Shown piece after piece: positions 19,345-64,000 of a DNA stretch of 64,000 nt; within the stretch, counting starts at the first letter, position 1; each line of letters starts with the position of its first letter. The translations under genes and the position numbers were made by a program. This DNA comes from Butyrivibrio sp. Lineage in GTDB: Bacteria; Bacillota; Clostridia; Lachnospirales; Lachnospiraceae. Where the stretch lies: positions 1 to 64,000 of the forward strand of contig JAMPEU010000006.1 of the NCBI GenBank assembly GCA_023664865.1. The letters run 5' to 3'. The notes under the pieces were generated by a model, which was not told the DNA's origin, did no database searches, and was given only the letters and a program-made list of their open reading frames with translations.

Positions 19345-20284
19345 ATGCGTAAAAATAGAGTTTTAGTAATGGGGGGGGGCTGGGTTTCTCGGTTCTCATT
19401 TGTGCGATAGGCTTATCGAGTCCGAAAATGATGTCATTTGTGTTGATAATTTGTTTACGGGCAGTAAAGACAATATAAGGCATTTGCTTAATAATCCATA
19501 CTTTGAATTTATCCGTCATGATGTCACTCAGCCAATCTATGTGGAATGTGACCAGATTTATAATCTCGCATGTCCGGCATCACCTGTTCATTATCAGAAA
19601 GATCCAATTTATACAACTAAAACATCCATATATGGTTCTTTTAATGCTTTAGGGCTGGCAAAAAGGACGGGGGCGAGGATTCTTCAGGCTTCCACATCTG
19701 AGGTATATGGCGATCCTGATTGTACGCCGCAGCCTGAAAGCTATAGGGGTAATGTTAATACCATAGGTCCGAGATCCTGCTATGATGAGGGAAAGAGGGT
19801 CGCGGAAACCTTGTTCTTTGACTATCATAGGATGCATGGCGTGGATATTAAAGTCATGAGGATTTTTAACACATATGGTCCCAGAATGGATATAGGAGAT
19901 GGAAGGGTTATTTCCAATTTTGTTGTACAGGCATTGAAAAATGAAGATATTACAATCTATGGTGAGGGTACCCAGACTAGGAGTTTCTGCTATGTAGATG
20001 ATTTGATTGATGGAATGATAAAATTAATGAACAGCAGGGACGGTTTTCATGGTCCTGTAAATATAGGAAATCCGGGAGAGTTTTCTATTAAAGAACTGGC
20101 TGAAATAATCATTGATATGACAAACTCGAAATCAAAGATAGTTTATAGGCCATTGCCGCAGGACGATCCGCTTCAACGCCGGCCGGATATAAGATTGGCT
20201 AAAGAGGAATTGAATTGGATGCCCAGAATTGATTTGAGGGAAGGGCTAGGCAAAACGATTGATTATTTCAAAAGTATTGTTTAG
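19345..20284 (+). CDS. UDP-glucuronate decarboxylase (UDP-xylose synthase), phase-OFF at a G9 tract
   Basis: The intended 312-residue SDR protein has the UXS pattern: [34 protein letters not shown] (catalytic Tyr/Lys) and [10 protein letters not shown]. It would convert UDP-glucuronate to UDP-xylose. Translation from ATG 19345 runs into a nine-G tract (19371-19379) lying in the NAD-binding GGAGFLG loop and then stops within 11 codons. Deleting one G (eight Gs) restores a single uninterrupted frame to the stop at 20284. The gene is therefore OFF in this sequence but otherwise intact, consistent with slipped-strand phase variation. Confidence 0.88.
19371..19379 (+). repeat. Poly-G tract G9 (OFF state) in the UDP-xylose synthase gene
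   Basis: Nine consecutive Gs at codons 9-12 put the downstream frame off by one base. Eight Gs would be in frame. Confidence 0.95.
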
Positions 20285-20340
20285 AAGTGCAGTTTATGGC
20301 ATATGGCAATGTGTCACGGATATTGTGATTGGAGAGAAAA

Positions 20341-22017
20341 ATGGTATATACGTTTATAAGTTGGATGATAATTGGAACTTCTGCGTTTCTCTGGGGGTTT
20401 AGTATTTTGTCCTTAATTGGAAGGGTTAATCATTATCAGTATAAAGATTTGGATTTAATAATAATGACAGGCCTTTGCTCTTTAACTGTTTATGCGCAGA
20501 TTTTCAGTCTGTTTTATAAGGTTGGAACGGCAGCGTTGATTGGGGTATTTTTTATTGATGCAGCATGCCTGATATTTATGTATAGAGATATTATAGAATG
20601 GATTAATAAGATGAAAAAGCTGCTTTTTTCATGCCGCCTGCTTATTGTGGTGTGTATCGGACTGGCAGCTATTATAATGTCTTTGAGCGCTGGGCAGATA
20701 TATGATACTAATCTGTACCATGCACAGGCCATTCGCTGGATTGAGGAATATAGGGTAGTACCGGGACTGGGCAATTTACATTCAAGACTGGCATGCAACA
20801 GTTCTTTTTTTTGCCTACAGGCATTGTTTAGTTTCCGCGGAATAATTGGACAATCGCTGCACGGCATGAACGGATTTATTATGTGGATTATTTTGTCATA
20901 TGTTGTTTGCTCTTTTAAATTTAGGGGAAACAAAAAAATATATGCATCTGATTTCGTACGAATGGTAGTAATTTGGTATTATGTGGGGACATCGTATTCC
21001 GTAGCGTTTTACGATGTGGCTTCACCGGGAACAGATGTTTGTACAATGGGACTGGTTGGCTATATAGTATGTAAATGGATTGATTTGCTTGAACAAGATA
21101 GGAAAAACATTGCGCCATATGCATATCTGTGTATTCTTGGAGTCTATGTTGCCACATTTAAATTGTCCTCTGCGATGATAGTCTTGTTGGTAATTATGCC
21201 GGCATACTGTTTAATCAAAGAAAGGAAATGGAAAGAGATTGCATTATATATTGGGCTGGGCGTACTTACAATTGCGCCGTTTCTTGCCAGGAATGTAATA
21301 CTTTCGGGATACCTTGTATATCCATATCCCGGATTGGATTTATTCTCCCCCGATTGGAAGATACCTGTGGAAGATGCAGAATTCATGAAGGCGTTGATAA
21401 CGACATGGGCACAGGGGTTTCGGGATACATTTAAAATGGTTTCATTTAGTGAATGGTTTCCTATTTGGAGAGAGAATATTTTGCCTTATGATTTAATCAT
21501 GCAAAGAGAGTTAATAATAGATATAATTGCAATTCCGATAGCAATAATTATTGGAATAGTCAGCGGTCTGCGTAATAAGGACTGGAATTTCTTTCATGTC
21601 ACGGCATGTTTAATAGCAGGCATTGTTTTTTGGTTCTTTAATGCGCCTACAAGGAGATTTGGTGAAATGTACCTAATCCTATTACCGGCATACTTGATTG
21701 GGAGTATTGCGAAAAATTTTAAATTCAAAAGGATAACTACAGTTGCTTTTGTTATATGGGGGGGGATTTGTATATATCATACTATGAAAGATGCGATGGT
21801 AAAAGCAGACCGGGCATATCTTATAAGAAGTGCTGATTATGACTACTTTAGCTGTCAGCAAATGGACTTTTATGGCCTGACCGTTTATTATCCTGAACAA
21901 GGTACGGACTTAACGGGTTATCATTATTTCCCGTCAGTTCCGGATGTGAATATATTATCCGGGATAGAACTCCGAGGAGATTCGTTTGAGGATGGGTTTA
22001 GGGTGCGAGAACCGTAA
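20341..22017 (+). CDS. Polytopic membrane protein, GT-C glycosyltransferase-like, phase-variable (ON)
   Basis: The 558-residue protein has about 10-12 hydrophobic helices. An acidic residue in the first periplasmic loop (GQIYDTNLYHAQAIRWI, about residue 120) is followed by LGNLHSRLACNS. The layout resembles GT-C sugar transferases or polymerases that use lipid-linked donors, but no named family was recognised. A G8 tract at codons 473-475 (WGGI) is in frame. Slippage would replace roughly the last 84 residues. ATG 20341 follows GGAGA. It converges with another membrane GT-like gene 14 bp away. Confidence 0.72.
   Translation: MVYTFISWMIIGTSAFLWGFSILSLIGRVNHYQYKDLDLIIMTGLCSLTVYAQIFSLFYKVGTAALIGVFFIDAACLIFMYRDIIEWINKMKKLLFSCRLLIVVCIGLAAIIMSLSAGQIYDTNLYHAQAIRWIEEYRVVPGLGNLHSRLACNSSFFCLQALFSFRGIIGQSLHGMNGFIMWIILSYVVCSFKFRGNKKIYASDFVRMVVIWYYVGTSYSVAFYDVASPGTDVCTMGLVGYIVCKWIDLLEQDRKNIAPYAYLCILGVYVATFKLSSAMIVLLVIMPAYCLIKERKWKEIALYIGLGVLTIAPFLARNVILSGYLVYPYPGLDLFSPDWKIPVEDAEFMKALITTWAQGFRDTFKMVSFSEWFPIWRENILPYDLIMQRELIIDIIAIPIAIIIGIVSGLRNKDWNFFHVTACLIAGIVFWFFNAPTRRFGEMYLILLPAYLIGSIAKNFKFKRITTVAFVIWGGICIYHTMKDAMVKADRAYLIRSADYDYFSCQQMDFYGLTVYYPEQGTDLTGYHYFPSVPDVNILSGIELRGDSFEDGFRVREP
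21758..21765 (+). repeat. Poly-G tract G8 (ON state) in a membrane glycosyltransferase-like gene
   Basis: Eight Gs read in frame as TGG GGG GGG A, about 84 codons before the stop. Confidence 0.93.
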
Positions 22018-22031
22018 CCTGCCCCATGACC

Positions 22032-23924
22032 TCATTTTTCCTGAATATATTCCCATATATGAATATTATCACGACTCTTTTCCGTTAGTATATATTGCTT
22101 TCCATCAAATTCTCGTTTGTCTCCCAGATTATAGCTTGAGACTATGCAATCCGGGACAAAATCTTCTTCGGAATATTTAGCTGTCTCATTTTCCACATTT
22201 ATATGTGCATAATACAGATTGTCCTTATCAATAATCCAAAGCGGATATTCATAAGTATTAAAAGAGAGTTCCAAACCTATGTTTTTAACATCGCTATCAC
22301 ATATCTCATCCATTATTTCTCGATACTCATCCGCAACATTCAAGTTGCTCACATAATACTCCTCCTGCCAGCCGCCCTTCATAATTCCACCGTGATACCA
22401 TGTCATGGCAAACAAGTCTATTGCGCAGCAGAAATAAATAATGGAAGCAGCTGTATGGCCTGCAAACTTAAACCGGCTGTTTTCATAAATATCCTGAAAC
22501 TGCACCGCTATAATAGGACATAAAAGTGCAAAATACGAAATCATAAATCTTGATACAAAAGGACCCCACCGTATGATTAGGCAAAACAAACAGAACATTC
22601 CAAATGTAAAATAAGTTGCAATGGCGGCCTTTTGTTTATGCCTTATATGACGATATAAGCACCAGCATAAGGATATAATTGATAATATTAAAACTATTGG
22701 ATTGACTGCAGTATCCTGTCCGAAGCACTGCGCTTCATAAACTTTGAATAGACTTCCATCCTCAGAAAGGGAAGGGTGATTCAATTCTACATGCAAAATG
22801 CGTGCTGCTGTAGTTACAAAACTGTATACAATCCTGTCGCTTCTGTAAATATAAATATTTGGAAAATTAAGTGTAAAATTTTTCAAAAAGTTTACTATGA
22901 GATATGTGGGCTGTGCAGTGCCTACAATCTGTCTTTGTCCTATAAAGGGCGGACTAACGGCATGGAAAGTAATAATGTTTCTTATAATTTCCGGTGAGAT
23001 AAAAATAACAAGCAAAGGGATAACGATTGCTAATAATTTAAGAATTGGCACAATTGGGTCTCTTCTTTTTATACATACCACAAGCAAGCCTACAACCATC
23101 ATAAACATTCCGATAGATACTGTGGGTTTGGTTAAATATCCGTATACAACACAGGCGCTCAATATGAGACATATATTTATATTGTTTAGGTTAAATATAA
23201 TGTGATCTTTGGATAAAGCAAAATCTAAAATAAAATGTGTAAAGATTAAGAACCAAATGCATGCAAAATGATCCACTTGCGTTGTCAATGCTTCTGCAAA
23301 CGCAATAGGCATGCACATGAATAATAAAGAAGACATTTTTGCCCATTTTTCCGTACAGCCAAGCCTATATGCCAATTTTGTGACCAGCCACGCATTGGTG
23401 ATATAGCAGGACCATTGTAGAATATGAAACAGACAATTCGTTTTGCCAAATATGATATATACATGCAGATTAATAAATTCAGTCAGAGCAGGACAGGCAA
23501 CCTGTCGTATATCATTGGTAGCAAAGTGCTTAACTGATTCATTCTGAGCCCAATGCGCAATTCGCGCCAAATGATAAGTCATGGAATCGTAATTATATGG
23601 AATAGTGCCTAACGCCCATAGAAAAGTAATTATTCCTATTATAAGATGGGGGGGGCATTTTTTTGCCATACTTAATGCCCTTGTAATAGTTAGTTTTAAG
23701 TTAAATTTACTTTTTTTAATTTTACATATAAGTATGATTAATATTACATCAAGTATAATCCAGCCCGCACATATAGAAAGCTGATTAACAGAATGGAGCA
23801 TTGAAAGGAATTCTGTTAAAAGATACATGTAAGTTACCCATGAAACGATTGCATACGAATATCGTTTTACCTTATCGCAAACTGATTCAAAAATTACGTA
23901 AAACAGAACAACTGCTAATAACAT
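22032..23924 (-). CDS. GT-C/ArnT-like polytopic membrane glycosyltransferase, phase-variable (ON)
   Basis: The 630-residue membrane protein has about a dozen helices. The first long extracytoplasmic loop contains TIPYNYDSMTYHLARIAHWAQ (Asp-Ser, then His-Arg), the layout of GT39/ArnT-type enzymes that move sugars from polyprenyl phosphate. It is one of only two minus-strand genes in the glycan locus. A C8 tract on the coding strand (codons 90-92, KKCPPHL) is in frame, so the gene is ON. A one-base slip would cut the protein near residue 95. ATG 23924 has only a weak AGG box. Confidence 0.78.
   Translation of the reverse strand: MLLAVVLFYVIFESVCDKVKRYSYAIVSWVTYMYLLTEFLSMLHSVNQLSICAGWIILDVILIILICKIKKSKFNLKLTITRALSMAKKCPPHLIIGIITFLWALGTIPYNYDSMTYHLARIAHWAQNESVKHFATNDIRQVACPALTEFINLHVYIIFGKTNCLFHILQWSCYITNAWLVTKLAYRLGCTEKWAKMSSLLFMCMPIAFAEALTTQVDHFACIWFLIFTHFILDFALSKDHIIFNLNNINICLILSACVVYGYLTKPTVSIGMFMMVVGLLVVCIKRRDPIVPILKLLAIVIPLLVIFISPEIIRNIITFHAVSPPFIGQRQIVGTAQPTYLIVNFLKNFTLNFPNIYIYRSDRIVYSFVTTAARILHVELNHPSLSEDGSLFKVYEAQCFGQDTAVNPIVLILSIISLCWCLYRHIRHKQKAAIATYFTFGMFCLFCLIIRWGPFVSRFMISYFALLCPIIAVQFQDIYENSRFKFAGHTAASIIYFCCAIDLFAMTWYHGGIMKGGWQEEYYVSNLNVADEYREIMDEICDSDVKNIGLELSFNTYEYPLWIIDKDNLYYAHINVENETAKYSEEDFVPDCIVSSYNLGDKREFDGKQYILTEKSRDNIHIWEYIQEK
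23648..23655 (+). repeat. Poly-G tract G8 (ON state; poly-C on the coding strand)
   Basis: Eight Gs on the plus strand lie in the minus-strand GT-C-like gene and encode Cys-Pro-Pro in frame. Confidence 0.93.
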
Positions 23925-23940
23925 CGCCTATACCCGTGTG

Positions 23941-23967
23941 AAGCTTAAAGGTGTCAGACTTAAGCTT
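23941..23967. promoter_or_regulatory. Inverted repeat between divergent glycan genes
   Basis: AAGCTTAA and TTAAGCTT are perfect eight-base arms around an 11-base loop in the 209-bp gap between the minus-strand GT-C-like gene and the plus-strand GT4 gene. Because the genes diverge, an operator is more likely than a terminator. Confidence 0.4.
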
Positions 23968-24050
23968 TACATTTCCTTTTTGTTTTAATATTTAGAATTA
24001 TACTTCAATACAATAATTGCGTCAATACAAGGGTAACCTACAGAAGTTCA

Positions 24051-24113
24051 ACTAAAATCATAAAATGCCTTTGAAAAATAATTATTTTATGATAGAATTA
24101 CAACTAGATTTAG
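24051..24113 (+). promoter_or_regulatory. Promoter block, copy 1 of a duplicated sequence
   Basis: TTGAAA (24071-24076) and TAGAAT (24093-24098) are 16 bases apart. The whole ~63-bp block recurs at 28120-28182 with few changes. It lies just ahead of the GT4 gene at 24134. Confidence 0.65.
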
Positions 24114-29714: not shown

Positions 29715-29724
29715 GGAAGAGAGT

Positions 29725-30798
29725 ATGAAATATGCGCTAATAGGATGTGGCAGAATATCACCAAATCATTTTGCCGCGGCAAAAGCAAATAATCTTGAAA
29801 TAGTAGCAATATGTGATCTAGTGCCTGTCAATATGCAGGATAAAATATTAAAATTTGATTTGGGTGATACGGTAAAACAATATACAAAGTTTGAGGAAAT
29901 GCTTGAAAAAGAACGCCCCGAATTGGTGGCGATTGCAACAGAAAGTGGAAGGCATGCGGAAATTGCGCTTACATGCATGGATTATGGTTGCAATTTAATC
30001 ATAGAAAAACCAATTGCGCTGTCCATAGAAGACGCAGATAAGATTATTGAGAAAGCCAAACGTTTACATTTAAAGGTATGTGCAAACCATCAAAATCGTT
30101 TCAATAAATCAATTCAAAAAATTCGTGAAGCAGTTGAAAAGAAACGTTTTGGAAGAATGTTTTATGGAACAGCACATGTAAGATGGTGTCGAGATAGGGA
30201 ATATTATGACAGGGCAAGCTGGCGTGGCACATGGGAGCAGGATGGCGGCGCGTTGATGAATCAGTGTATCCATAACATAGATTTGCTTCGCTGGATGATG
30301 GGTGATGAAGTGGAGGAAGTGATTGGTATGACAGATCGTCTGCACCATCCCTATATTGAGGCGGAAGATTTAGGCATTGCGCTCATAAAATTTAGAAACG
30401 GAGCTTATGGCATTATAGAGGGAACAACAGATATTTATCCCCAAAATTTGGAAGAAACTCTGTATTTATTTGGTGAAAAGGGAACTGTAAAAGCAGGCGG
30501 AGTATCTGTGAACGTTATCGAGGAGTGGAGGTTTTCTGACATGCTGGATAATCCGGAAGACGTGAAGAGACAGTTTCACGAAAACCCGCCGAATGTATAT
30601 GGGTATGGACATACGCCGTTGTATGCAGATGTAATTGATGCTATCCAAAATGACAGGAAACCTTACGTGGATGCTGAGGCGGGAAAGAGGGCGTTGGAGT
30701 TGGTGTTGGCGATATATCAATCTGCGGCTACGAGAGAGCGTGTAAGATTTCCGTTAGAGAAGTGTGCAACGATTGATTTTCAAGGGAGATTTCAATGA
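29725..30798 (+). CDS. Gfo/Idh/MocA-family NAD-dependent sugar dehydrogenase (WlbA/WbpB-like)
   Basis: The protein has 357 residues. The N-terminal Rossmann domain starts YALIGCGRISPNH and holds the EKP motif (IIEKPIALS, near 95). The C-terminal domain has DGGALMNQCIHNIDLLRWMMG, typical of the WlbA/WbpB group that oxidises UDP-GlcNAcA at C3 for 2,3-diamino sugar acids. With the DegT aminotransferase and acyltransferases nearby it would form a UDP-diacetamido-uronate route. The substrate is inferred from similarity and context. It overlaps the next gene by four bases. Confidence 0.85.
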   Translation: MKYALIGCGRISPNHFAAAKANNLEIVAICDLVPVNMQDKILKFDLGDTVKQYTKFEEMLEKERPELVAIATESGRHAEIALTCMDYGCNLIIEKPIALSIEDADKIIEKAKRLHLKVCANHQNRFNKSIQKIREAVEKKRFGRMFYGTAHVRWCRDREYYDRASWRGTWEQDGGALMNQCIHNIDLLRWMMGDEVEEVIGMTDRLHHPYIEAEDLGIALIKFRNGAYGIIEGTTDIYPQNLEETLYLFGEKGTVKAGGVSVNVIEEWRFSDMLDNPEDVKRQFHENPPNVYGYGHTPLYADVIDAIQNDRKPYVDAEAGKRALELVLAIYQSAATRERVRFPLEKCATIDFQGRFQ

Positions 30799-31531
30799 GG
30801 GATATTGTGAATTACTCAGAAAAATACGCTGAACATAGCTTTGAAGAATATAAAGTTTTCTATCGAAGAAGAAAGATACTAGAGATTATTGACAAAGTTC
30901 ACCCTAGAAGTATCCTTGAAATTGGATGTGGAAGCGAACCGTTATTTTTATATGTAAATAACGTGGATTTTACTGTTGTAGAAGCATCACCAAACTTTTA
31001 TGAAAATGCAGTAAAATTAGCAAAGGATAGGAATGAAACCATTACTATCATAAATGGCTTTTTTGAAGAAGTTGCATCAAAGTTATCTAATCAATACGAT
31101 ATGATTATATGTGCATCTCTGCTTCATGAAGTTGAGCAGCCAAGTGAACTATTAGGTGCGATTGTGGGAGCGTGTAATGAAAATACTATTGTAAATATCA
31201 TAGTGCCTAATGCTAATTCTATGCACCGCTTATTGGGAAAAGAGATGGGTATATTGGCGGATGTGCATGATATGACTCGTAATAATAAGGATTTTCAACA
31301 AAATAGTGTTTTTGACAAAAAAACTTTAAATAAGATAGTAATGGAAAGTGGAATGGAAATTTTGGATCGGGGGGGACATTTGTAAAGCCTTTTTCGCACA
31401 AACAGATGTATGAAATGATGGAGTCAGGAATACTGAGCAATGAAGTGTTAGATGGTCTATATATATTGGGAGAGAATGAGATGGCTGAGTTTGCCAGTGA
31501 GATATATGTTAACTGTAGGGTAAAACGGTGA
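30795..31531 (+). CDS. Class I SAM methyltransferase, phase-OFF at a G7 tract
   Basis: Residues 1-193 form a SAM methyltransferase (ILEIGCGSEPLFLYV as motif I near 35; ICASLLHEVEQP near 108). After a seven-G tract (31369-31375) translation ends four codons later at TAA 31383-31385. With one added G (eight) the frame continues for another 50 codons (GGTFVKPFSHKQMYEMMESG onwards) to TGA 31529-31531, which overlaps the next start as in a coupled operon. The product is therefore truncated by about 50 residues in this sequence and repairable by a one-base slip. Confidence 0.87.
31369..31375 (+). repeat. Poly-G tract G7 (OFF state) in a methyltransferase gene
   Basis: Seven Gs near codon 193 lead to an early stop. 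Eight Gs restore the conserved C-terminus. Confidence 0.92.
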
Positions 31532-37407: not shown

Positions 37408-38406
37408 GTGGAAAAAATATTTATTATTGCGGAAGCGGGAGACAATCACAACGGAAGTATAGAGTTGGCATTTCAGCTTATTGATAAGGCTGTGGAAGCG
37501 GGAGCGGATTGTGTTAAATTTCAGACTTTTGTAACAGAAGAGGTTATCTCTAAAAATGCTGAAAAAGCAGATTATCAGAAGGAATCTACAGGTAGTGATG
37601 GCAATCAGTATGAGATGGTAAAAAAACTGGAATTATCTTTTGAGCAGTTCAGGCGGCTTCAGTTATACGCCAAGGAGAAAAAAATTATTTTTTTATCGAC
37701 GCCGTTTGATATACCCAGTGTAGAATTTTTATATAGTATTGAGATTCCATGTTTTAAAATTCCGTCCGGTGAGATTACAAATTTCCCTTATTTGGTAAAA
37801 ATTGCAGAAACCGGAAAGGATGTAATTATGTCTACAGGGATGGCGGAGTTAGAAGAAATAGATACGGCAGTTCGGGTTTTAAGAGAACATGGCAGCGGAA
37901 GCATCAGTTTACTGCATTGTAATACGGAATATCCGACACCGATAGAAGATGTTAACCTTCGCGCAATGTTAACGTTAAAAGAAAGATATGGCGTTAAAGT
38001 TGGGTATTCTGACCATACATTGGGCATTGAAGTGCCAATTGCAGCAGCAGCCCTGGGGGCGGAGATTATTGAAAAGCATTTTACGTTAGATCATAATATG
38101 GAAGGACCTGATCACAAAGCAAGCCTGGAACCGGATGAATTGAAAGCGATGGTTACAGGAATCAGAAAAATTGAGAAAGCATTGGGAAATGGCATAAAAA
38201 CGGCTAGTCCGTCGGAGAAGAAGAATATTGATATTGCCAGAAAGAGCATTGTTGCCAGACGAAATATTAAAAAAGGAGAAATACTGTCTGAGGAAAATCT
38301 GGCAGTAAAGCGTCCTGGAAATGGAATTTCACCCATGAAATGGGAGAGGGTGATTGGCACAAATGCAGTCAGAGATTTTGTAGAGGATGAAATGATAGAA
38401 TGTTAA
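37408..38406 (+). CDS. neuB: N-acetylneuraminate/legionaminate synthase
   Basis: The 332-residue enzyme condenses PEP with an N-acetylmannosamine-type sugar to form a nonulosonic acid. It has IAEAGDNHNGS at the N-terminus, ADCVKFQTF, FLSTPFDIPSVEFL, FKIPSGEITN, the metal-binding HCNTEYPTP, GYSDHTLG and EKHFTLD, and a C-terminal SAF antifreeze-like domain from about 275. The start is GTG 37408 with GGGAGA upstream. It overlaps neuC by seven bases. Sialic versus legionaminic product cannot be settled from this gene alone. Confidence 0.93.
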   Translation: MEKIFIIAEAGDNHNGSIELAFQLIDKAVEAGADCVKFQTFVTEEVISKNAEKADYQKESTGSDGNQYEMVKKLELSFEQFRRLQLYAKEKKIIFLSTPFDIPSVEFLYSIEIPCFKIPSGEITNFPYLVKIAETGKDVIMSTGMAELEEIDTAVRVLREHGSGSISLLHCNTEYPTPIEDVNLRAMLTLKERYGVKVGYSDHTLGIEVPIAAAALGAEIIEKHFTLDHNMEGPDHKASLEPDELKAMVTGIRKIEKALGNGIKTASPSEKKNIDIARKSIVARRNIKKGEILSEENLAVKRPGNGISPMKWERVIGTNAVRDFVEDEMIEC

Positions 38407-39563
38407 AGAAAGTAGCTGTAGTAACGGCAACCCGCGCAGAATATGGAATTTTAAAAAATGTTATTGAGAAGATAGATAAATCTGAACAGTTGGAGCTTTG
38501 CCTTATCGTAACAGGAATGCATTTGGTGCCAGAATATGGGATGACAGTAGAAGAAATTGAACAGGATGGATACCGTATTTCAGAAAAAGTTGATATATTA
38601 TTAACTTCTAATACTCCAGCATCGGTATCTAAGACTATGGGACTTGCTATGATTTTGTTTTCAGAAGTGTTTGAAAGGCAAAATCCTGATATGCTTATAG
38701 TATTAGGAGATAGATATGAATTATTATCCGTTTGCAGTGCGGCAATGAATGCAGGAATTCCAATTACGCATATATCCGGAGGGGAAACAACACAGGGGGC
38801 AATAGATGAAAGCATAAGACATTGTATCACTAAGATGAGCTATCTACATTTTCCGGCATGTGAAGCTTATAGAAAAAGAATCATACAGCTTGGTGAGGAA
38901 CCAGAGCGTGTTTATAATTTTGGTGATGTGGGAGTGGAAACACTTAGAACGATTCCGCTAATGAGTAAAGAAGAGTTGGAGAAATCAATTGACTTTTCTC
39001 TGGACAAACCATATTTAAGTGTTACTTTTCATCCAACTACATTGGAAAGTGAAGAAGCCGAAAAGCAAATGAAGGAAGTTCTTGCGGCATTGGAAGTATT
39101 TCCGGATATGAAATTCGTTTTTACAAAAGCAAATGCAGATGCCGGTGGGAAAAAAATGAATGATTTAATCGACCGGTACAGCAATTCCCATGATAATTGT
39201 ATTGCTTTCGCATCACTGGGAATCAGACGCTATTTAAGCTTACTGAGGTATTCCAGTGGCATACTGGGGAATTCTTCCAGCGGTATTGTGGAAGCCCCTT
39301 CTTTCGGAATTCCAACAATCAATATAGGGAGCAGACAAAAGGGAAGACTGCAGGCAGACAGTATTTTAAACTGTGAACCTGAAAGAGAACAAATTATTAG
39401 GGCGGTTATACAGTCTCAAAGTAAAGAATTTTTGGAACGGGCAAGAAATACAAAGAATCCTTATGGTGATGGAGATGTTTCGACACAGATTGTAAAGGTA
39501 ATAACAGAATATTTATATCAGAATAAGATTTATCTGGAAAAGAAGTTCTATGATGTCATATAA
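38400..39563 (+). CDS. neuC: UDP-GlcNAc(-type) 2-epimerase, hydrolysing
   Basis: The 387-residue GT-B-like epimerase shows VVTATRAEYGIL, MLIVLGDRYELL, ITHISGGETTQGAIDESIRH and GNSSSGIVEAPSFG. It releases UDP while inverting C2, feeding the preceding neuB product. NeuC (UDP-GlcNAc) and LegG (UDP-2,4-diacetamido sugar) share all of these motifs. The legB gene 11 kb downstream favours the legionaminic branch. Confidence 0.92.
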   Translation: MLKKVAVVTATRAEYGILKNVIEKIDKSEQLELCLIVTGMHLVPEYGMTVEEIEQDGYRISEKVDILLTSNTPASVSKTMGLAMILFSEVFERQNPDMLIVLGDRYELLSVCSAAMNAGIPITHISGGETTQGAIDESIRHCITKMSYLHFPACEAYRKRIIQLGEEPERVYNFGDVGVETLRTIPLMSKEELEKSIDFSLDKPYLSVTFHPTTLESEEAEKQMKEVLAALEVFPDMKFVFTKANADAGGKKMNDLIDRYSNSHDNCIAFASLGIRRYLSLLRYSSGILGNSSSGIVEAPSFGIPTINIGSRQKGRLQADSILNCEPEREQIIRAVIQSQSKEFLERARNTKNPYGDGDVSTQIVKVITEYLYQNKIYLEKKFYDVI

Positions 39564-39588
39564 TTATAGAAAGCACTGGAGAGGAAAA

Positions 39589-40278
39589 ATGAGAAATCTT
39601 GCGGTAATTCCGGCTAGAAGCGGTTCAAAAGGGTTAAAAGATAAAAATATTAAAGAACTTTTGGGGAAACCGTTGATGGCATATACTATTGAAGCTGCAA
39701 TAGAATCCGGATTGTATGATACAGTGCATGTGTCAACTGATACGGATAAATATGCCCAGATTGCGATGGAATATGGGGCGGATGTGCCATTTCTTAGAAA
39801 AAAGGAATTGTCTACGGATGCTGCTTCTACTTGGGATGTAGTAAGATTTGTGATACAGGAATATGAAGAAATGGGAAAAAGGTTTGATGTGGTAACGGTT
39901 TTACAGCCGACATCGCCTTTACGTACAAAGGAAGATATTATTGATGCATACAGTTTTTTTGAGGAAAAGAAGGCAAATATGATTTCATCGGTTTGTGAGA
40001 TGGAACACTCTCCATTATGGAGCAATACATTACCAGATGATTTGTCGATGGAATACTTTGAAGATGAGGAGACAGCATATATACCCAGACAGAAATTGCC
40101 TGTTTATTATAGAGAAAATGGGGCGGTTTATATTTTGAAAGTAGATTATTTGATGAACAATACTGCATTGTATAAAAACAGGTGCTTTGCATATATCATG
40201 GAAAAAGAACATTCAGTAGATATAGATGAAGAAATTGATTTTCTGTTTGCCCAAATTATACTTGCTGATTGTCACTAG
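39589..40278 (+). CDS. neuA: Acylneuraminate (nonulosonate) cytidylyltransferase
   Basis: The 229-residue enzyme activates the nonulosonic acid as its CMP-sugar. It has IPARSGSKGLKDKN, KPLMAYTIEAA, VSTDTDKYAQIA, VTVLQPTSPLRT and VDIDEEIDFLFA. ATG 39589 was chosen for its GGAGAGGA box; the longer frame starts inside neuC. With neuB and neuC it forms the minimal three-gene set for CMP-nonulosonate. Confidence 0.93.
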   Translation: MRNLAVIPARSGSKGLKDKNIKELLGKPLMAYTIEAAIESGLYDTVHVSTDTDKYAQIAMEYGADVPFLRKKELSTDAASTWDVVRFVIQEYEEMGKRFDVVTVLQPTSPLRTKEDIIDAYSFFEEKKANMISSVCEMEHSPLWSNTLPDDLSMEYFEDEETAYIPRQKLPVYYRENGAVYILKVDYLMNNTALYKNRCFAYIMEKEHSVDIDEEIDFLFAQIILADCH

Positions 40279-40323
40279 TAGATGCGCTGGTATTGGGTAA
40301 ATAAAGGAAAGGATGAATTGAAT

Positions 40324-40989
40324 ATGGATAGAAAGTCATTTGATGCAGAATGGGAAGTAATTCACAGCACACAGGAATGGGGGAAATATCCTTCAGAACA
40401 TGTTATTAGATTTATAGCAAGAAATTTTTATAGCGAGAAAAGGAATACCATAAAAATTCTGGATTTTGGTTGCGGGGGGGGCAGTCACACTTGGTATTTA
40501 GCAAGGGAAGGCTTTGATGTATATGCGTTTGACGGTTCAGAAAGCGCAGTCAAAAAAACAGGAGAGAGGTTATCGGCGGACAATCTGTATGCGCATCTTG
40601 AAGTGGCGGATGCATTGAAATTGCAGTATGAGCAGGATTATTTTGATGCAGTAATTGATAATGTTTCTATTTATGCTAACAGGCAGGAAAATATCGTTGC
40701 CATGTATGAGGAAATATTTGATATATTGAAACATGGAGGGAAACTTTTGACAGTATGTTTTGGGAAAAAAACGTCAGGGTGCAGGAGTGGACAGGAAATA
40801 GAGAAAGATACATATATTAATATAGAAGAAGGCGTTCTGGCAAACAGAGGAACGCAACATCTGTGGGTATTGGAAGAACTGGAAGAAACATTGCGCAGAA
40901 TAGGATTTCAGGATATCAAGCATGATATTATTTTATATACTGATAATGGAAATCAGGTTGAGCAATATGTTGTAATGGGCATGAAATAG
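40324..40989 (+). CDS. Class I SAM methyltransferase, phase-variable (ON)
   Basis: The 221-residue methyltransferase has motif I ILDFGCGGGSHTWYLA (near 46-61), FDGSESAV and FDAVIDNVSIYA. The CGGGS of motif I is encoded by a G8 tract (40474-40481), so a one-base slip would destroy the SAM site and abolish the enzyme. It is in frame here. Its place right after neuA suggests methylation of the nonulosonic acid or of a later intermediate, which is inference. Confidence 0.87.
   Translation: MDRKSFDAEWEVIHSTQEWGKYPSEHVIRFIARNFYSEKRNTIKILDFGCGGGSHTWYLAREGFDVYAFDGSESAVKKTGERLSADNLYAHLEVADALKLQYEQDYFDAVIDNVSIYANRQENIVAMYEEIFDILKHGGKLLTVCFGKKTSGCRSGQEIEKDTYINIEEGVLANRGTQHLWVLEELEETLRRIGFQDIKHDIILYTDNGNQVEQYVVMGMK
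40474..40481 (+). repeat. Poly-G tract G8 (ON state) in SAM motif I of a methyltransferase
   Basis: Eight Gs read in frame as Gly-Gly-Gly at codons 51-53. A conserved GCGGG motif partly constrains the composition, but the all-G codon choice is unusual for this AT-rich gene. Confidence 0.9.
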
Positions 40990-41013: not shown

Positions 41014-41955
41014 ATGTTAGGTGCAGCTCTCAGTAAAGTAAAAAACTTAATTTTAAGAAATATGGAATTTTGGTGGCTCAAAATAAATCCTGTTATTTTT
41101 GTGCATAGTAGTGATTTAATGTTGCCAAGTGATAAGGGAACTACTATTATACAGATGATTGTTATATCGAGGCTGATGGATATAGAAAATAGAAGACAGG
41201 GGGGGGTACATTACTATTGGCAGGCAAGATTATGTGAATTAGATTACAAGAAACAATATACTGAAGATGAGAAAAGAGAAATGGACGAAAATTTTGAACG
41301 CTTTTTTCAAGCAATGGAAATGAGAGGGTTCAATCCTGATATATCTTGGATTTTAATTGCGCAACAGCCCATAATGGCGCAATCAGATGGTACACACAGA
41401 TTGGGATATTTATTGAGCGATAGATCGAATGTATTCGTGCCGGCGAAGGTACGTTTTCCAATGAGTTGGGGATATCCAATTGATGGTATTACATGGCTTT
41501 CTGATATAGGAATGCCCCAGAAAGAGATTGAGAAAATTTTAGAGCGTTATCAAATGTTGTATCATGATATGCGCAGATATATTATTGCAGTTATAGATAA
41601 AGAGATATTTGAGCAAAACAGTAAAGCTTTACTGCAGGAAATCAAGTGCATAGGCGAATGTAAAGGGATAAGGTGTTTATACAAGAAAAATGGTATTTTC
41701 AGAATGCCAAAACAGAAAAGAAAGTATTGCAAAGGCAAAGAACAATTAGTAATCTTTGAAATAGAGATACAGTATCAGCATCTATATTATAAACATGGAA
41801 AACTGAAATCAAAGCTTGCAGACATGCTGACGGACAGATGGCAAAAATTAGTCGGCACAGATGGTTATGTGGCAGGTACGATAACGGAAAGTATAACGTT
41901 GGAAACATATTTGGATGAAAATTATTTTGAGGATAAAGAATGGAAAAAGTTTTAG
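41014..41955 (+). CDS. Unknown protein of the acyl-activation module, phase-variable (ON)
   Basis: The 313-residue soluble protein is not recognised. It contains AQSDGTHRLGYLLSDR, which resembles the DGxHR signature of ParB/sulfiredoxin-like folds, and a positively charged C-terminal half. A G8 tract at codons 62-64 (RRQGGVHYYW) is in frame; a slip would abolish it early. It sits between a phase-variable methyltransferase and the acyl carrier protein gene, so it may act in the same modification. Confidence 0.65.
   Translation: MLGAALSKVKNLILRNMEFWWLKINPVIFVHSSDLMLPSDKGTTIIQMIVISRLMDIENRRQGGVHYYWQARLCELDYKKQYTEDEKREMDENFERFFQAMEMRGFNPDISWILIAQQPIMAQSDGTHRLGYLLSDRSNVFVPAKVRFPMSWGYPIDGITWLSDIGMPQKEIEKILERYQMLYHDMRRYIIAVIDKEIFEQNSKALLQEIKCIGECKGIRCLYKKNGIFRMPKQKRKYCKGKEQLVIFEIEIQYQHLYYKHGKLKSKLADMLTDRWQKLVGTDGYVAGTITESITLETYLDENYFEDKEWKKF
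41199..41206 (+). repeat. Poly-G tract G8 (ON state) in the unknown gene
   Basis: Eight Gs encode Gln-Gly-Gly-Val in frame near codon 62. Confidence 0.93.
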
Positions 41956-43788: not shown

Positions 43789-44802
43789 ATGAAAGCAAAT
43801 ATAATGAAAGTAATAATAGTTATAGTGATAATGTTTGCCATTGTGGGATGCGGTAAGGAAAAATTGAATCAAGGGCGGGATTCGGAAGAAGAGGTGAGCG
43901 TGAATGATGAAACAGTTACCTTAAATATTGCATATCAATATGGATTGGCATATGCTCCTGTGGTGATTGCACAGGAACAAGGATTAATTGAGCAGGCATA
44001 TGAAGAAATGACAGGAAAGCAGGTTGTGGTTGTTTGGAATCAAATGAGTTCAGGCGCTGATATTAATACGGGAATATCATCGGGAAGTATAGATGTTGGT
44101 TTTATGGGGGTTGCGCCTGCAATTACGGGAGTGACTAAAGGAGTAGGGTATAAAATATTTTCAAATATATCAGGTCAAGAACATGGGCTTATGACAAATG
44201 ATGAAAATATTCATACCCTTGGCGATTTGATTGGAAGTGATAAGCAAATTGCGCTTGTAAACATAGGTTCTATTCAGCACATTTTGCTTGGCATGGCATT
44301 GGAGAATGCGGGCTATGACCCGCATGGATTAGATGCTAATATTGTGGCAATGAAACATCCTGATGGGATGGTGGCTTTAGAAACCGGAAATGTATCATGC
44401 CATCTTACATCCAATCCTTATATTTTCAAAGAACGGGAAGAAGAAAACTTATATGAAATAGAAGGAGTATCAGAAGCATGGGGGATTAATGATTCATTTA
44501 TTGTGGGTGTGGCATCAGAATCATTATATGATAATAATCCCGAATTATATCAGGCGTTGTGCGATGCTATCGAGGAGGCAATTGTATATATGAATGATAA
44601 TCCGGAAGAGGCAGCGAAGATTACATGTGAGTATAATGGGAATAGTGAGGAAGATGAACTTGCTTATATAAAGAAGAGCAAATATATGGTTGAGACAAGT
44701 GGTGTGTTTGAGTTGGCTTCTTTCATGGCGCGTAATGGTTTTATTGATGAAATGCCAGAAACTTATGAAGAACTTGTTTTTGAAAATGTTTCTGGTGATT
44801 AA
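43789..44802 (+). CDS. ABC transporter substrate-binding lipoprotein (NMT1/SsuA/TauA-like)
   Basis: The 337-residue protein has a lipoprotein signal (lipobox AIVGC, Cys about residue 21) and a periplasmic-binding fold of the NitT/TauT group: NIAYQYGLAYAPVVIAQEQG, SGSIDVGFMGVAPAITG and LVNIGSIQHILLG. It captures a small anionic or zwitterionic solute outside the cell for the permease and ATPase that follow. The ligand is unknown. Confidence 0.88.
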   Translation: MKANIMKVIIVIVIMFAIVGCGKEKLNQGRDSEEEVSVNDETVTLNIAYQYGLAYAPVVIAQEQGLIEQAYEEMTGKQVVVVWNQMSSGADINTGISSGSIDVGFMGVAPAITGVTKGVGYKIFSNISGQEHGLMTNDENIHTLGDLIGSDKQIALVNIGSIQHILLGMALENAGYDPHGLDANIVAMKHPDGMVALETGNVSCHLTSNPYIFKEREEENLYEIEGVSEAWGINDSFIVGVASESLYDNNPELYQALCDAIEEAIVYMNDNPEEAAKITCEYNGNSEEDELAYIKKSKYMVETSGVFELASFMARNGFIDEMPETYEELVFENVSGD

Positions 44803-44823: not shown

Positions 44824-45633
44824 ATGAACAGGAATAATAAGCGGATATATACAATAGTGGTACAGACAGTATTCATTATTGCAATATTGTGTATATGGGA
44901 ATGGGTTTCAAAATCCGGCCTAGTTGGGGGGGGCAAATCGGAACTGATATTTCCATCGGTAGAATCAATAGCAGGTGCATTTGTCAAGAATTTTTCAAAA
45001 GGTTATGCGGGAATTTCCCTTTGGATATATATTGCTAATTCGATGAAGCTTTTGCTAGAAGGTTTATTGATAGGAATTATTCTGGCATTTATATTATCCG
45101 GTTTGTCGATGATAAGTAGAATATTTTATGATATCTATAATTTAATTATTTCTGTATGCGATTTATTGCCGGGAGTTGCTTTGTTGCCAGTAGTAATTAT
45201 TATATTTGGAGTAAAGCCGGAGGTAATTGTTTTTTTAGTTGTACACGCGGTATTGTGGCCAATGTCTAGAAATATTTTAGATGGTTTTCAAGCAGTGCCT
45301 CAGATATATGTCGAAGCAGGAATGAATATTGGCTTGAAAGGGTTGACATTATTATGTGGGGTTTATTTTCCGGCTGCAATTTCATATATTGTTTCTGGTT
45401 TAAAGGTTGGATGGGCAAGAGCTTGGAGAGGTCTGATTAGCGCAGAGATGATATTCGGGGTGGCAGCCTGCCCAGGGATTGGTTTGTTTATTAATCAAAT
45501 GCGAACTAATATGAATAATGCAGAGATGTATGCAACATTGGTTGTTATTGCCATTATTGGATTGGCTGTACAGTATGGGGTTTTGTCACCGATTGAGAAA
45601 TGTACAATAAAAAAGTGGGGGATGACAAAATGA
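44824..45633 (+). CDS. ABC transporter permease, phase-variable (ON)
   Basis: The 269-residue membrane protein of the SsuC/TauC type has six helices and an EAA-like loop ([19 protein letters not shown]). A G8 tract at codons 35-37 (GLVGGGKSE) is in frame. A one-base slip would truncate the protein right after its first helix and disable uptake. Its stop overlaps the ATPase start by four bases (ATGA). Phase-variable control of an importer inside a glycan locus is unusual. Confidence 0.87.
44926..44933 (+). repeat. Poly-G tract G8 (ON state) in the ABC permease gene
   Basis: Eight Gs encode three glycines in frame, directly after the first membrane helix. Confidence 0.93.
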
Positions 45634-52050: not shown

Positions 52051-53108
52051 ATGTATTTAATTAATATATATCGTAGATTTAAAAAAACTGCTGTGGGAAA
52101 TATTATAGATACAAATATTACTTATCCAATTATGAAAGTGATATTTTCAATATGGAATTGGTTTCGTTTATATAAATATAAATGGAAAGAAAGCAAGAAG
52201 TGTTTTGGAAAGCTGTATCCAGATAGAACTTTTTATGTTATTCGTGTCAGACCGATTACTTCATCGTTAGGACCGCTGGTAATGCGGGTGTGTAAACAAC
52301 TTGAAACGTGCGATATAAAAGAATATATTCCGGTTGTTGATTTTTCTTTTTTTCAAAACGTATTTTTGGAAAAAGGTGAGCGGGGGGGGTAAATCCTTGG
52401 GAATATTATTTCGAGCAACCGACAATGTATAGTACTCGTGCGGTCTATCATGCCAAAAATGTTATATTAGGAAATGCTGATCCTCAAGGCATTTCAAATG
52501 CTGAAATGGATATGATTATTGAAGATGATAATATACTAAAGCGGTATTGCGCAGTATATGAGAAGTATATTCATATTAGTAAGCGCATTGAGAAAAAAAT
52601 AGAAAAAATATATGTGAAACTTTTTAACCCTCAATGGAGAGTTTTGGGATGCGTATATCGAGGCACAGATTATAGAAATCGAAAGGTAGTTAATGAACAT
52701 AGGCAGCCGTCTTTGCTAGAAGAAATAAAGAAAGCTCAAGAGTTGATGCATGAGTGGGAATGTGATCATATTTTTTTGGCAACGGAAGATAAGGATGCCG
52801 TAGTAAAATTTAAAAGTACATTTGGAGATAAACTAATTTATGTAGAAAAAGAAAGATATCCAAGTAATGTAGTTGATACACAAGAGTATAAGTTTAATAG
52901 AGAGCAGGACGCATACTATAAAGGTGAAGAATATTTAACGGAAATAGTTATATTGTCGCGTTGTAATTGTTTATTGTCTAGTCGGGTGGGAATTTTGATG
53001 GCAGCATTACCTATGAATAACTTAAAATATGAACATAAATACATATATGATTTAGGAATATATACGGAAATAGATTATGCGTCTAATCAGCAGGAGGATA
53101 AGTTATGA
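52051..53108 (+). CDS. Fucosyltransferase-like glycosyltransferase, phase-OFF at a G8 tract
   Basis: The intended protein of about 352 residues has an N-terminal part (TFYVIRVRPITSSLGPLV) and, past the tract, VLGCVYRGTDYRNRK, HIFLATEDKDAV and LSRCNCLLSSRVGIL. The latter resemble the donor site and the RGTD/HxRRxD-type motif of the GT11/GT23/NodZ fucosyltransferase superfamily. Translation stops at TAA directly after the G8 tract (52382-52389), giving 113 residues without the catalytic part. One extra G (nine) opens one frame to the stop at 53106-53108, which overlaps the next start in an ATGA. The gene is OFF but intact. Confidence 0.82.
52382..52389 (+). repeat. Poly-G tract G8 (OFF state) in the fucosyltransferase-like gene
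   Basis: Eight Gs end in an immediate TAA; nine or six Gs would be in frame. Confidence 0.94.
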
Positions 53109-61078: not shown

Positions 61079-61952
61079 ATTATGCGTGTTAGTTACCGGA
61101 GTAGGTGGATTTATTGGACAAAATGTGGCTGAATATTTATTAGGTCATAATATGGAAGTTATAGGCATCTATCACAGAAATGAACCTACAGATTTACGCG
61201 GAATGGAACGATTTGCCTGTGATTTGGCGAAAACTTCCGTAGAAAAGTATGTAAATGATAAAAACATAAATGCAATTATACATTTTGCCGGACAGATGAG
61301 AGGAGACAAGATACGGAATTATTTGGACAATACAATTGGAAGTACAAGACAGTTGATTGATTATGCGCAAAGGGAAAAAATTCGTACTTTCATCTATATA
61401 TCATCTATTTCTGTTTATGGGGAAACTTTGCATACAGTAAATGAAGACAGTGACAGAATTAATATGGACGATTATGGCATGACAAAATATTTATGTGAGA
61501 GAATGTTGGAAGATTCATGTATTGAAAATCGAATTGTTATCCGTCTGCCAAGAACATTGGGAAAAGGCTGTGATTTATCGTACCCTTGGATTCCGAAAGT
61601 GACCGGACAAATGTTGAAGAATGAAGATGTATATTATATGAATCCGAATTTGCTGTATAATAATATGTTGTATGTAGACGATTTGTCAAAATTTCTATTA
61701 TATCTTTTACATGAAAATAAGAGCGGATTTGACCGTTTTGTCCTAGGCGCTAAAGGACAAATGAGAATTTTTGATATTTTAGAAAGGTTAAAAGAATGCT
61801 TGGGAAGTTCATCAATGCTGATTGAAAAAACGGCAAGTGGACGTAATAAGTGTTATGCTATTGATACTACATATGCAGAAGAACATGGTTTTGTTTCAAG
61901 AAAGATTGATAAAATCATAGAAAAATTTGCGCATGATATGAAAATGTTTTAG
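61071..61952 (+). CDS. NAD-dependent epimerase/dehydratase (extended SDR), fixed paralog
   Basis: The 293-residue SDR protein has VLVTGVGGFIGQNVAEYL, IIHFAGQMRGDKI, ISSISVYGE, and catalytic DDYGMTKYLCE (Tyr/Lys). It acts on a nucleotide sugar; the reaction is unknown. It is followed after 12 bp by a paralog (61965-62848) that carries a poly-G tract. This copy has none and is permanently readable. Confidence 0.88.
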   Translation: MSKLCVLVTGVGGFIGQNVAEYLLGHNMEVIGIYHRNEPTDLRGMERFACDLAKTSVEKYVNDKNINAIIHFAGQMRGDKIRNYLDNTIGSTRQLIDYAQREKIRTFIYISSISVYGETLHTVNEDSDRINMDDYGMTKYLCERMLEDSCIENRIVIRLPRTLGKGCDLSYPWIPKVTGQMLKNEDVYYMNPNLLYNNMLYVDDLSKFLLYLLHENKSGFDRFVLGAKGQMRIFDILERLKECLGSSSMLIEKTASGRNKCYAIDTTYAEEHGFVSRKIDKIIEKFAHDMKMF

Positions 61953-61964
61953 GAGGAGTATGTG

Positions 61965-62848
61965 ATGAAAAGAATTCTTATTACGGGTGTAGGAGGTAAC
62001 GTCGGTCAATATATTGCGAATAATCTGGCGCATGCAGGATATGAAGTTATTGGTGTTTGCCGTAACCATATTCCACAGCATGCAGACTATGAATTGCTAT
62101 ATGCAGATTTATCCGATACAATTAGGGGGGGGTAAAAAACATTGATGTTGTCATTCATATTGCAGCAAATATATTAGGAGATGTGAATGCTTTAATCCGT
62201 GATAATATTGAAGCAACTAAAAATCTTGTTTGCTGGTCTGAAAAAGTTCAGGTGAAAAGGATTATATATATGTCATCTGTAGCAGTTTATGGAAACGTAG
62301 ATGGTGAGTTGTGCGAGGAAAGCGCCATTCAGAATCCGAGTATATATGGTATAACAAAACATTTGGGGGAATCCATTATCAAAGAATCAGAAATCCCTGA
62401 GAAATTGATTCTTCAACTTCCAAAAATGATTGGACCATATGTTCATTTAGAAGATACACGAGATTCAGGATTCCTAACGATGACCAAGAAGATTTTGAAT
62501 GATGAAAAAGTTATATGCTTTATTCCTGAAATGTACTATAATAATTATTTACATGTGGCGGAACTAAGTGTTTTTTTACAGACTCTTTTGCAGCAAGCCG
62601 TTTGGGACGAGAAGAAAACAGTGCTTGTTGCAGCTCAAGAACGATTAACGATGATGAAAATTTTACAGATTATGAAAGAGACAGCGGAAAGTAGGTCAGA
62701 AATTATTGCACAAAGTAATGGAACAATGCCAAATGTTTCATTGATAAATGTGAGTAAGGCAAAGGAACTGGGATTTTCTCCGTGCGCGGCTGAAGATATG
62801 CTAAGACGATTTATAAGTGAAGTTAAAGTTCCTAGCGTTTCAAAATAG
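61965..62848 (+). CDS. NAD-dependent epimerase/dehydratase paralog, phase-OFF at a G8 tract
   Basis: The intended 294-residue SDR protein resembles its upstream neighbour: ILITGVGGNVGQYIANNL, then past the tract VVIHIAANILGDV, MSSVAVYGNVDG, and PSIYGITKHLGE (Tyr/Lys). Translation from ATG 61965 (AGGAGG upstream) stops at TAA straight after the G8 tract (62125-62132), leaving 56 residues. One more G (nine) gives one frame to the stop at 62848. The gene is OFF in this sequence. Confidence 0.87.
62125..62132 (+). repeat. Poly-G tract G8 (OFF state) in the epimerase paralog
   Basis: Eight Gs at codons 54-56 lead straight to TAA; nine or six Gs restore the frame. Confidence 0.94.
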
Positions 62849-62913
62849 TTGTTGAGTTTATTCTATATCTTTTTGAAATGTTATAAGAATAATTTTGGGA
62901 GGGATCAAATGTT

Positions 62914-63596
62914 ATGGATATTAAAAAAATGAATTATGAAGAGATGAAAGAGGCATTTGAAACACAGGAATTAAAAGTAGGACCGTGGACCTCATGGAGT
63001 ATGATACACGATGCACGACATATGGCATTTGTACTTTCGAGGTATAAGTTTGTGGCAAAAATGCTTGAAGGAAGAAAATATGTAATGGAAGTAGGATGCG
63101 GTGATGCGTTTGGAATGCCTATTGTTGCACAGAATCTACGGGGGGGGCGCTGTATGCAGTTGATTGGGAAGAAAAATTTTTGAACGATAATAGAGAGAGA
63201 ATGCAGTTTTGCGATAATGTGAAATTTATACAACATGATATGAATAACAGTCCGCTTGATACTGTTAAAGTCAGTGCAATTTATTTAGTTGATGTAATAG
63301 AACATGTTGATCCGGTCAAAGAAAATTCTTTTATAGAAAATATGATTGCATCCTATGATAAAAAAGAAGATGCGGTAATGATTATAGGAACGCCTAATTT
63401 AGCGGCAGCAAAATATGCTTCTGAGCAAAGCGCCTCTGTTCATATTAACTTAAAGGGACAGAGTGAATTGGCGGCATTGCTGAATAAATATTTTTACAAT
63501 GTTTTTATGTTTGGCATGAATGATGAAGTAGTACATACGGGGTATGGACCAATGTGCCATTATATATGGGGGATAGGCGCAGGACTTAGGAAATGA
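62914..63596 (+). CDS. Class I SAM methyltransferase, phase-OFF at a G8 tract
   Basis: The intended 227-residue methyltransferase has YVMEVGCGDAFGMPIVAQ (motif I, about 57-74), then after the tract GALYAVDWEEKFL (motif II acidic Asp), FIQHDMNNSPL and YLVDVIEHVDP. With eight Gs (63140-63147) the read-through frame ends at TGA 63181-63183 after 89 residues. With nine Gs it continues to 63596. GGGAGG precedes ATG 62914. The intact second half argues for reversible switching rather than decay. Confidence 0.88.
63140..63147 (+). repeat. Poly-G tract G8 (OFF state) in a methyltransferase gene
   Basis: Eight Gs at codons 76-78; nine or six Gs restore the frame. Confidence 0.94.
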
Positions 63597-63633
63597 AAAA
63601 CTTTGCGAAATAAATATATATTTGGAGGATAAA

Positions 63634-64000
63634 ATGAAGAATAATAACTGCACTTTTTATAAGCCGGTGTGTCGGCTGGAAGATGATGATTGGAGAATTC
63701 ATAAGGGGGGGGTAATGGCGGTCGAATTGCTTTATATGGCGCAGGGAAATATGGCAAAATTGCTTTGCAAAATATTAAAAAATATTTACCTCAATTACAA
63801 ATTATATGTTTTATAGATGATAATAGAATTAGAAATAACGAAGATGTTGAAGGGTTAAAGGTACTCTCTTTGCAGGAAGTTATGGAACAAGAATCGGATT
63901 TTACTATTATCATTACAAATTATTATGTTTCATCGGTATTGGCAAAAATAGAAGCTAAGGGATTTGATTTAAATAAGGTATTTTTTTGGAGCCAGTTTTT
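63634..64000 (+). CDS. Rossmann-domain modifying protein, phase-OFF at a G8 tract (partial at window end)
   Basis: From ATG 63634 (TTTGGAGG upstream) the first 24 codons lead into a G8 tract (63705-63712). The eight-G frame ends at TAG 63814-63816 in unrelated residues. With nine Gs the frame reads GGRIALYGAGKYGKIALQ, a dinucleotide-binding loop, then ICFIDDNRIRN and continues to the window edge. This N-terminal Rossmann module is common ahead of FkbM-type methyltransferases and PglD-like acyltransferases. The true function lies beyond the window. Confidence 0.78.
63705..63712 (+). repeat. Poly-G tract G8 (OFF state) in the last gene
   Basis: Eight Gs near codon 25 misdirect the frame; nine or six Gs would restore it. 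Confidence 0.94.

Follow-up and report, generated by a model that had tools for sequence, protein, structure and literature searches.

Probable poly-G contingency loci in a surface-glycan locus of Butyrivibrio and across the genus

G tracts and genes of the window

The window, meaning the whole 64,000-nucleotide stretch of Butyrivibrio sp. DNA analysed here (contig C147:1-64000 of genome G000), carries eleven runs of at least seven G, namely one G9, nine G8 and one G7, which are all present as G on the forward strand and, by frame reading, all lie inside coding sequence. A preliminary description of this DNA had placed runs of 7-9 G in eleven genes, five in frame and six off by exactly one base; all eleven were located exactly there, and the same split was obtained. 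No C-run of at least six was present in the window and no G-run of at least seven preceded position 19371, consistent with the claim that the first 19 kb held none. The further claim that such runs exceed expectation was borne out by 22 overlapping G7 matches in the window against a mean of 4.2 (sd 2.6) in dinucleotide-preserving shuffles, none of 100 reaching 22. Synonymous-codon shuffling of the window genes yielded 4 observed G-runs of at least eight against 0.39 expected, with a maximum of 4 in 500 shuffles, a weak test because the off-frame tracts lie outside the gene set.

The tracts at 21758, 23648, 40474, 41199 and 44926 are in frame, the same open frame running on either side of each. 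The G8 at 21758-21765 lies in the gene at 20329-22017, and the run at 23648-23655, a G8 on the forward strand, is a C8 in the sense of its own gene, which occupies 22032-23924 on the minus strand; both genes were read by us as large membrane-protein-like and neither matched a Pfam family. On the forward strand, the G8 at 40474-40481 is placed at the GCGGGS motif of a methyltransferase gene (40282-40989, Methyltransf_25), the G8 at 41199-41206 in a gene with no Pfam family (41014-41955), and the G8 at 44926-44933 in an ATP-binding cassette (ABC) transporter permease gene (44824-45633, BPD_transp_1) that adjoins an NMT1-like binding protein gene at 43789 and an ATPase gene at 45600.

At each of the six remaining tracts, all on the forward strand, two open frames meet with an offset of one base. 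The G9 at 19371-19379 falls within the codons that specify the Rossmann glycine motif in an epimerase gene at about 19345-20284 (Pfam GDP_Man_Dehyd/Epimerase), for which the name UDP-glucuronate decarboxylase-like is our reading. Seven copies of this gene, from six relatives among the 60 searched, encode the GGAGF motif without a G-run, and the window tract therefore looks new. The G7 at 31369-31375 is near the 3' end of an S-adenosylmethionine methyltransferase gene (30795-31385, Methyltransf_23), and open coding sequence in another frame continues downstream of it to about 31530. The G8 at 52382-52389 divides a single gene into two parts (52051-52392 and 52425-53108), with no Pfam family for either, and the G8 at 62125-62132 is in an NAD-dependent epimerase gene at about 61965-62848, assigned by Pfam and by homologues. 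A methyltransferase-like gene at about 62914-63596, so named from our reading of its GCGDAFG motif and with a downstream part that matched no Pfam family, contains the G8 at 63140-63147. The G8 at 63705-63712 lies early in a nucleotide-binding-like gene (our reading) that begins at about 63634 and runs off the window beyond 64000. The tract positions of the preliminary description thus stood, and its gene details were amended for the strand of the gene at 23648 and the extent of that at 63705. The offset reading draws on homologues at 19371, 52382 and 62125 and on the open frames themselves at 31369, 63140 and 63705.

For the 62125 epimerase, nine of the thirteen nearest homologues (P0002-P0014) start at the tract or downstream of it, two of them with MGGG, and the full-length members of this set are P0002, P0006, P0007 and P0011. 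All ten more distant aligned homologues are full length, as are, by listed size, four of five unaligned matches, the fifth being short (P0029, 134 aa). The same epimerase, used to search the genus, had a single distant copy there, at 48% identity. Full-length homologues of the 52382 gene mostly cross the join without a change in length, extra residues being present there in P0040 and P0043; the part before the tract is lacking in 9 of 24 aligned homologues, several of which are on short contigs.

The tracts are hosted by a cluster at 15998-63596 on the forward strand, assigned to surface-glycan synthesis from its Pfam content: GT2 and GT4 glycosyltransferases, methyltransferases, DegT aminotransferase, NTP transferase, SIS and HAD proteins, epimerases, a split transketolase, a radical SAM pair, a polysaccharide deacetylase, and kinase-cytidylyltransferase genes that we read as heptose-type. 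Also part of it is one ABC importer, next to an AMP-ligase, with no evident link to glycans. The tract-bearing genes themselves comprise two epimerases, three methyltransferase-like genes (one by motif reading), two large membrane-protein-like genes, the ABC permease and three genes without a family. The description of the region as a surface-glycan locus was accordingly supported by the Pfam content of the cluster, with the exception of the permease at 44926, which is not evidently a glycan gene; the 2^11 glycan states once proposed stand as an arithmetic upper bound only. A nonulosonate-type set (NeuB, 2-epimerase and cytidylyltransferase) is found at 37408-40278 within the locus. At the contig start, 130-4510 encodes Type I restriction specificity (HsdS-type) and restriction (HsdR-type) subunits, with no methyltransferase subunit among the proteins scanned in that stretch.

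Tract census across the genome and the genus

The G000 assembly (3.82 Mb, 180 contigs, 96.6% complete) was scanned for G-runs by exact length, calculated as differences of overlapping counts, giving 167 runs of six, 15 of seven, 54 of eight, six of nine and none of ten or more. The step from six to seven is an eleven-fold drop and is followed by a peak at eight that is far above continued decay; A- and T-runs decay smoothly with length in 252 kb of fetched DNA. The glycan locus of the window holds 10 of the 60 runs of at least eight, so that the notion of an eleven-gene system confined to this locus had to be abandoned, tracts being spread through both the genome and the genus. DNA was fetched for 67 of the 75 G000 runs of at least seven, comprising all 60 of at least eight and 7 of the 15 of length seven.

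Frame breaks were found at 12 of 34 classifiable G8/G9 sites, compared with 26/372 A/T-runs of at least six, 1/5 G6, 0/3 G7 and 68/1006 random sites; unclassifiable sites numbered 21/55 for G8/G9, 224/596 for A/T-runs and 494/1500 for random positions. Of the G000 tracts of at least seven that are flanked on either side by 50 or more open codons (n=46, after 21 of 67 with short flanks were left out), 32 keep the frame and 14 break it, an in-frame share above one third, and 44 of the 46 read G on the coding strand. The corresponding figure for a second species (G020) is 21 of 28 in frame, with 8 of 36 tracts left out for short flanks. The bases bordering G000 tracts of at least eight outside the window are C or T before the tract in 50/50 and C or A after it in 44/50, the window itself having A before the tract in 3/10. 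Tracts of at least eight in G020 are likewise mostly preceded by C/T and followed by C/A, and T follows the tract in 33 of 36 tracts of a further relative (G085).

Across the genus (n=77, without restriction on completeness), the number of runs of at least eight per genome has a median of 20 and a maximum of 95, with at least 20 in 39/77, and at least one run of nine or more is present in 73/77. The median for 218 genomes sampled from the family's other genera, all at least 90% complete, is 3, with at least 20 runs in 4/218 (Mann-Whitney p ~5e-23, not corrected for phylogeny); these raw counts for relatives include some artefacts near N's and contig ends, which were not subtracted. About 60-100 runs of at least eight G also occur in several genomes of other families of the order (G053, G103, G115, G181, G232 and others). 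The run counts of G020 (11 of seven, 34 of eight and two of nine or more) peak at eight as in G000. In G085 the counts are 10 of seven, three of eight and 40 of nine or more, and length ten accounts for 28 of 36 fetched tracts, these having been picked from runs of at least nine.

Thirteen of 36 fetched G020 tracts match a tract at the orthologous G000 site, with a flank identity of 77-97%. Two of these pairs differ in length, both as nine versus eight. One concerns a lipoprotein-like binding protein gene (C115), out of frame with nine G in G000 and in frame with eight in G020; in the other, both copies look out of frame. Further orthologue length differences, among relatives, are 13/10/11, 12/10 and 10/11. 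The closest comparison was provided by an FkbM-methyltransferase-like gene (named by us from its sequence) in G087 and G068, where 3010 bp align at 99.7% identity with seven mismatches and a single gap, (GA)4G9 versus (GA)3G9. This difference of one GA unit beside the G9 leaves a product of 388 aa in one allele and 71 aa in the other. About 19.8 kb starting just beside this gene align at 99.5% with two gaps in total, the GA unit and one single base elsewhere. A change of repeat number that moves a gene into or out of frame was thus seen in two pairs (G087/G068, and nine versus eight at C115), both between genomes.

Genes carrying tracts and tracts in front of genes

Pfam was searched with 50 tract-gene proteins from elsewhere in G000, 15 of which matched no family. 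The families comprise acyltransferases (Acyl_transf_3, MBOAT), TupA/ATP-grasp sugar-transfer proteins, methyltransferases, GT4, GtrII, a pyruvyl transferase, sulfatase-type enzymes (one just below the Pfam cut-off), CotH, extracellular binding proteins and BspA-like leucine-rich repeat proteins, together with ABC2-type and energy-coupling factor (ECF)-type transporter parts, CstA, a kinase, a radical SAM protein and a PF02522 protein. Most tract genes with a family have a surface or host-contact function, exceptions including the ECF-type ATPase, CstA and the radical SAM protein. In several binding proteins the tract falls close to the N-terminus, within a stretch rich in Ser, Thr and Asp, and once directly after what we read as a lipobox-like cysteine. 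Tandem sulfatase-like paralogues occur in G000 (C91) and G020 (C8), the G020 copies near mutL/mutS. One sulfatase-like copy with a G8 is in frame in G000 and off in G020 at equal tract length, by way of other small changes, and a sulfatase-like tract gene used as query returned mainly full-length relatives, with a 427-aa form on a G020 contig (P0135).

Many tracts of relatives precede genes. Scanning for promoters, with the tract required inside the spacer, found TTGACA-18-TATAAT with a G11 in the spacer in G085, more consensus-like pairs around tracts in G085, G084 and G086, and TTGAC[T/G]-18-TA-box pairs ahead of a secreted-protein family at two G000 sites and a G020 counterpart. The G000 tract on C44 is promoter-like, as is that on C97, which was for this reason rejected as an off-frame coding tract. 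In four species (G084, G014, G015 and G085; loci L155, L159, L235 and L270) a flagellin gene has a G10 four or five bases ahead of its start, the Flagellin_N domain having been tested in the G084 copy only. To our knowledge a tract directly before a flagellin start has no parallel, although no dedicated search was made. A chemoreceptor-like gene has a G10 in front of it in three species (sCache domain tested in the G002 copy), and the tracts of relatives measure 13, 10 and 11 at a GntR-type regulator and 12 and 10 at a prepilin peptidase.

Interpretation and known systems

The tracts are very probably poly-G contingency loci, that is, sites of phase variation by slippage, of a known type, in a host for which no report was found among the matches listed. 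The simplest account would be that replication slippage at G tracts gains or loses single G's and that the tracts were selected as contingency loci, each slip turning a single gene on or off by chance. In coding tracts the effect would be on the frame, in promoter tracts on the spacing from -35 to -10. This bacterium, probably a gut member of the Lachnospiraceae, and many species of its genus together carry dozens of runs of G8 to G10 or more inside or just before surface-sugar, flagella and nutrient-uptake genes, and slippage probably changes the length of these runs. Such changes and their reversal would take place within a clonal population, off-frame genes would make no working enzyme, and the outcome would be a cell surface that varies in its antigens or phage receptors. 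The poly-G contingency claim of the preliminary description remains the best-supported reading and its glycan setting is retained, but transporters, surface proteins and, in relatives, front-of-gene tracts have to be included as well.

Several observations weigh against this interpretation. Tract lengths are known from assemblies alone and were compared between genomes, and the G000 assembly is rated 5.11% contaminated. Mixed-length tracts often break assemblies, and only 3 of the 60 tracts are within 400 bases of a contig end (C3 at 23, C42 at 35 and C119 at 377). Both partners have length eight at 11 of the 13 orthologous G000/G020 tracts, and many tract pairs among relatives are ten versus ten; with such equal lengths the tracts look rather stable. 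Some truncated homologues of the 62125 epimerase are on short contigs (P0010 on 900 bases), so that contig ends may explain some of them, and since its closest homologue is only 77% identical, with no further strain of this species found for the gene, the truncation was compared between species and not strains. A promoter score of at least 9 was reached by 19/211 tracts against 41/1030 control placements, and in a stricter scan by 14/211 against 55/4120 controls, with six of the 14 in coding-like contexts; at a score of at least 10 the stricter scan gave 10/211 against 12/4120. Some promoter matches belong to tracts that are clearly coding, and these probably arose by chance.

Mismatch repair bears on the rate of switching. 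MutL (MutL_C) was found in 74/77 genus genomes, and in G020 the open frames measure 674 aa for MutL and 898 aa for what we read as MutS; on these grounds the absence of mismatch repair was rejected as the cause of the tracts. The contig break inside the G000 mutL has no tract at the break. In Campylobacter jejuni, which is without mismatch repair, the rate per division at a G8 is ~4e-4 for the gain of a base and 4e-5 for a loss (PMC8224891, excerpt), and tract rates can be as much as 100 times as high as at tracts of equal length in Neisseria meningitidis (PMC4235727, excerpt). As the tracts here are short at G8 and mismatch-repair genes are present, switching may be slow, a further point on the negative side. 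A tract length at the low end, the presence of repair genes and equal lengths in 11/13 pairs all count against fast switching; the kind of system is considered likely.

Homopolymer sequencing or assembly error, by which all genes would truly be in frame and the off states artefacts, was judged improbable. The 180 contigs of G000 and the errors of Illumina sequencing at G/C tracts of at least eight (PMC4235727, excerpt) speak for it, as do plain artefacts in relatives, namely runs of 14-16 beside N's in G024 and low-complexity contig ends in G085 and G002, but error cannot easily produce the G8 excess, the orthologous sites or the genus spread, the offsets go in both directions, and A/T-runs of like length show frame breaks only at background level. 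A still smaller probability was given to ordinary decay, in which the off-frame genes are pseudogenes and the G-runs merely mutation hot spots. Glycan loci do turn over and contain broken genes, and 14 of the 46 well-flanked G000 tracts are off frame; against this, the majority are in frame, both halves of the off-frame genes are long, open and joined at the tract, tracts are retained between species at 74-97% flank identity, and the sole indel in 3 kb of the G087/G068 pair is in the repeat.

The tracts could instead be stable and have another role, as transcriptional or ribosomal slippage sites at which one length yields a mixture of products, or as spacing or structure elements. The length of eight shared by 11 of 13 orthologous pairs, the single commonest length per lineage (eight in G000 and G020, ten among the 36 fetched G085 tracts) and the lineage-specific border bases would fit such a role, which we nevertheless hold to be unlikely, given that some orthologue lengths differ (9/8 twice, 13/10/11, 12/10, 10/11), that the in-frame state differs between close relatives and that promoter-like spacer tracts are untranslated.

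Extending the contingency-locus reading, a genus-wide, two-mode form of bet-hedging can be put forward tentatively, and we think it somewhat less probable than otherwise: frame switches would serve envelope-glycan and nutrient-binding genes, promoter or leader tracts would serve flagellin, chemoreceptor, lipoprotein and regulator genes, and tract length and border bases would be set by lineage. The lineage-set lengths and borders (Y-G8-C/A here, G10-T in G085) would then point to a property of replication or repair that sets tract length and differs by lineage. The Lachnospiraceae of the gut are abundant, and their genomes are commonly treated as fixed lists of genes; if tens of surface, motility and uptake genes are switched at random, single-strain genomes and consensus metagenome assemblies would misstate their expression in each population, and responses to phage, immunoglobulin A and diet would include fast selection of phase states. 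Many 'broken' glycan genes in such assemblies may be off states, and many poly-G contingency loci coexisting with mismatch-repair genes would offer a testable case.

Homopolymer tracts in promoter spacers are known from Neisseria and Bordetella (porA, opc, fim). The promoter-like tracts described here share the position between -35 and -10, but stand ahead of lipoprotein and secreted-protein genes and in another phylum. No report of poly-G contingency in Lachnospiraceae was found among the matches listed in the open-licence part of PMC, which subscription journals and preprints lie outside. The novelty formerly claimed is to that extent sustained, but it is narrowed by known poly-G switching in Bifidobacterium breve pili and in Mycoplasma agalactiae gsmA, the latter as cited in PMC9187656 (excerpt). 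Campylobacter and Neisseria are established hosts of poly-G contingency loci. One likeness is to the poly-G/poly-C tracts of C. jejuni capsule and lipooligosaccharide genes, with which an AT-rich genome, coding G tracts in glycan genes, tens of loci and a predicted one-base frame switch are shared (PMC4235727 and PMC8224891, excerpts); here, in contrast, the host is a member of the Lachnospiraceae with mismatch-repair genes, the commonest length in this species is eight, binding proteins and (in relatives) front-of-gene tracts are involved, and the system is known from assembled sequence. Phase variation in Clostridioides difficile also concerns the Clostridia, but proceeds by site-specific inversion and not repeat slippage (PMC11868660, excerpt). 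B. breve, like the present organism, is a Gram-positive gut commensal with an intragenic G-tract, and slippage was shown there by maximum-depth sequencing at two pilus loci (G10/G11; PMC9187656, excerpt); it differs in being an actinobacterium with two loci, against tens of tracts per genome here, where slippage is deduced from the sequence.

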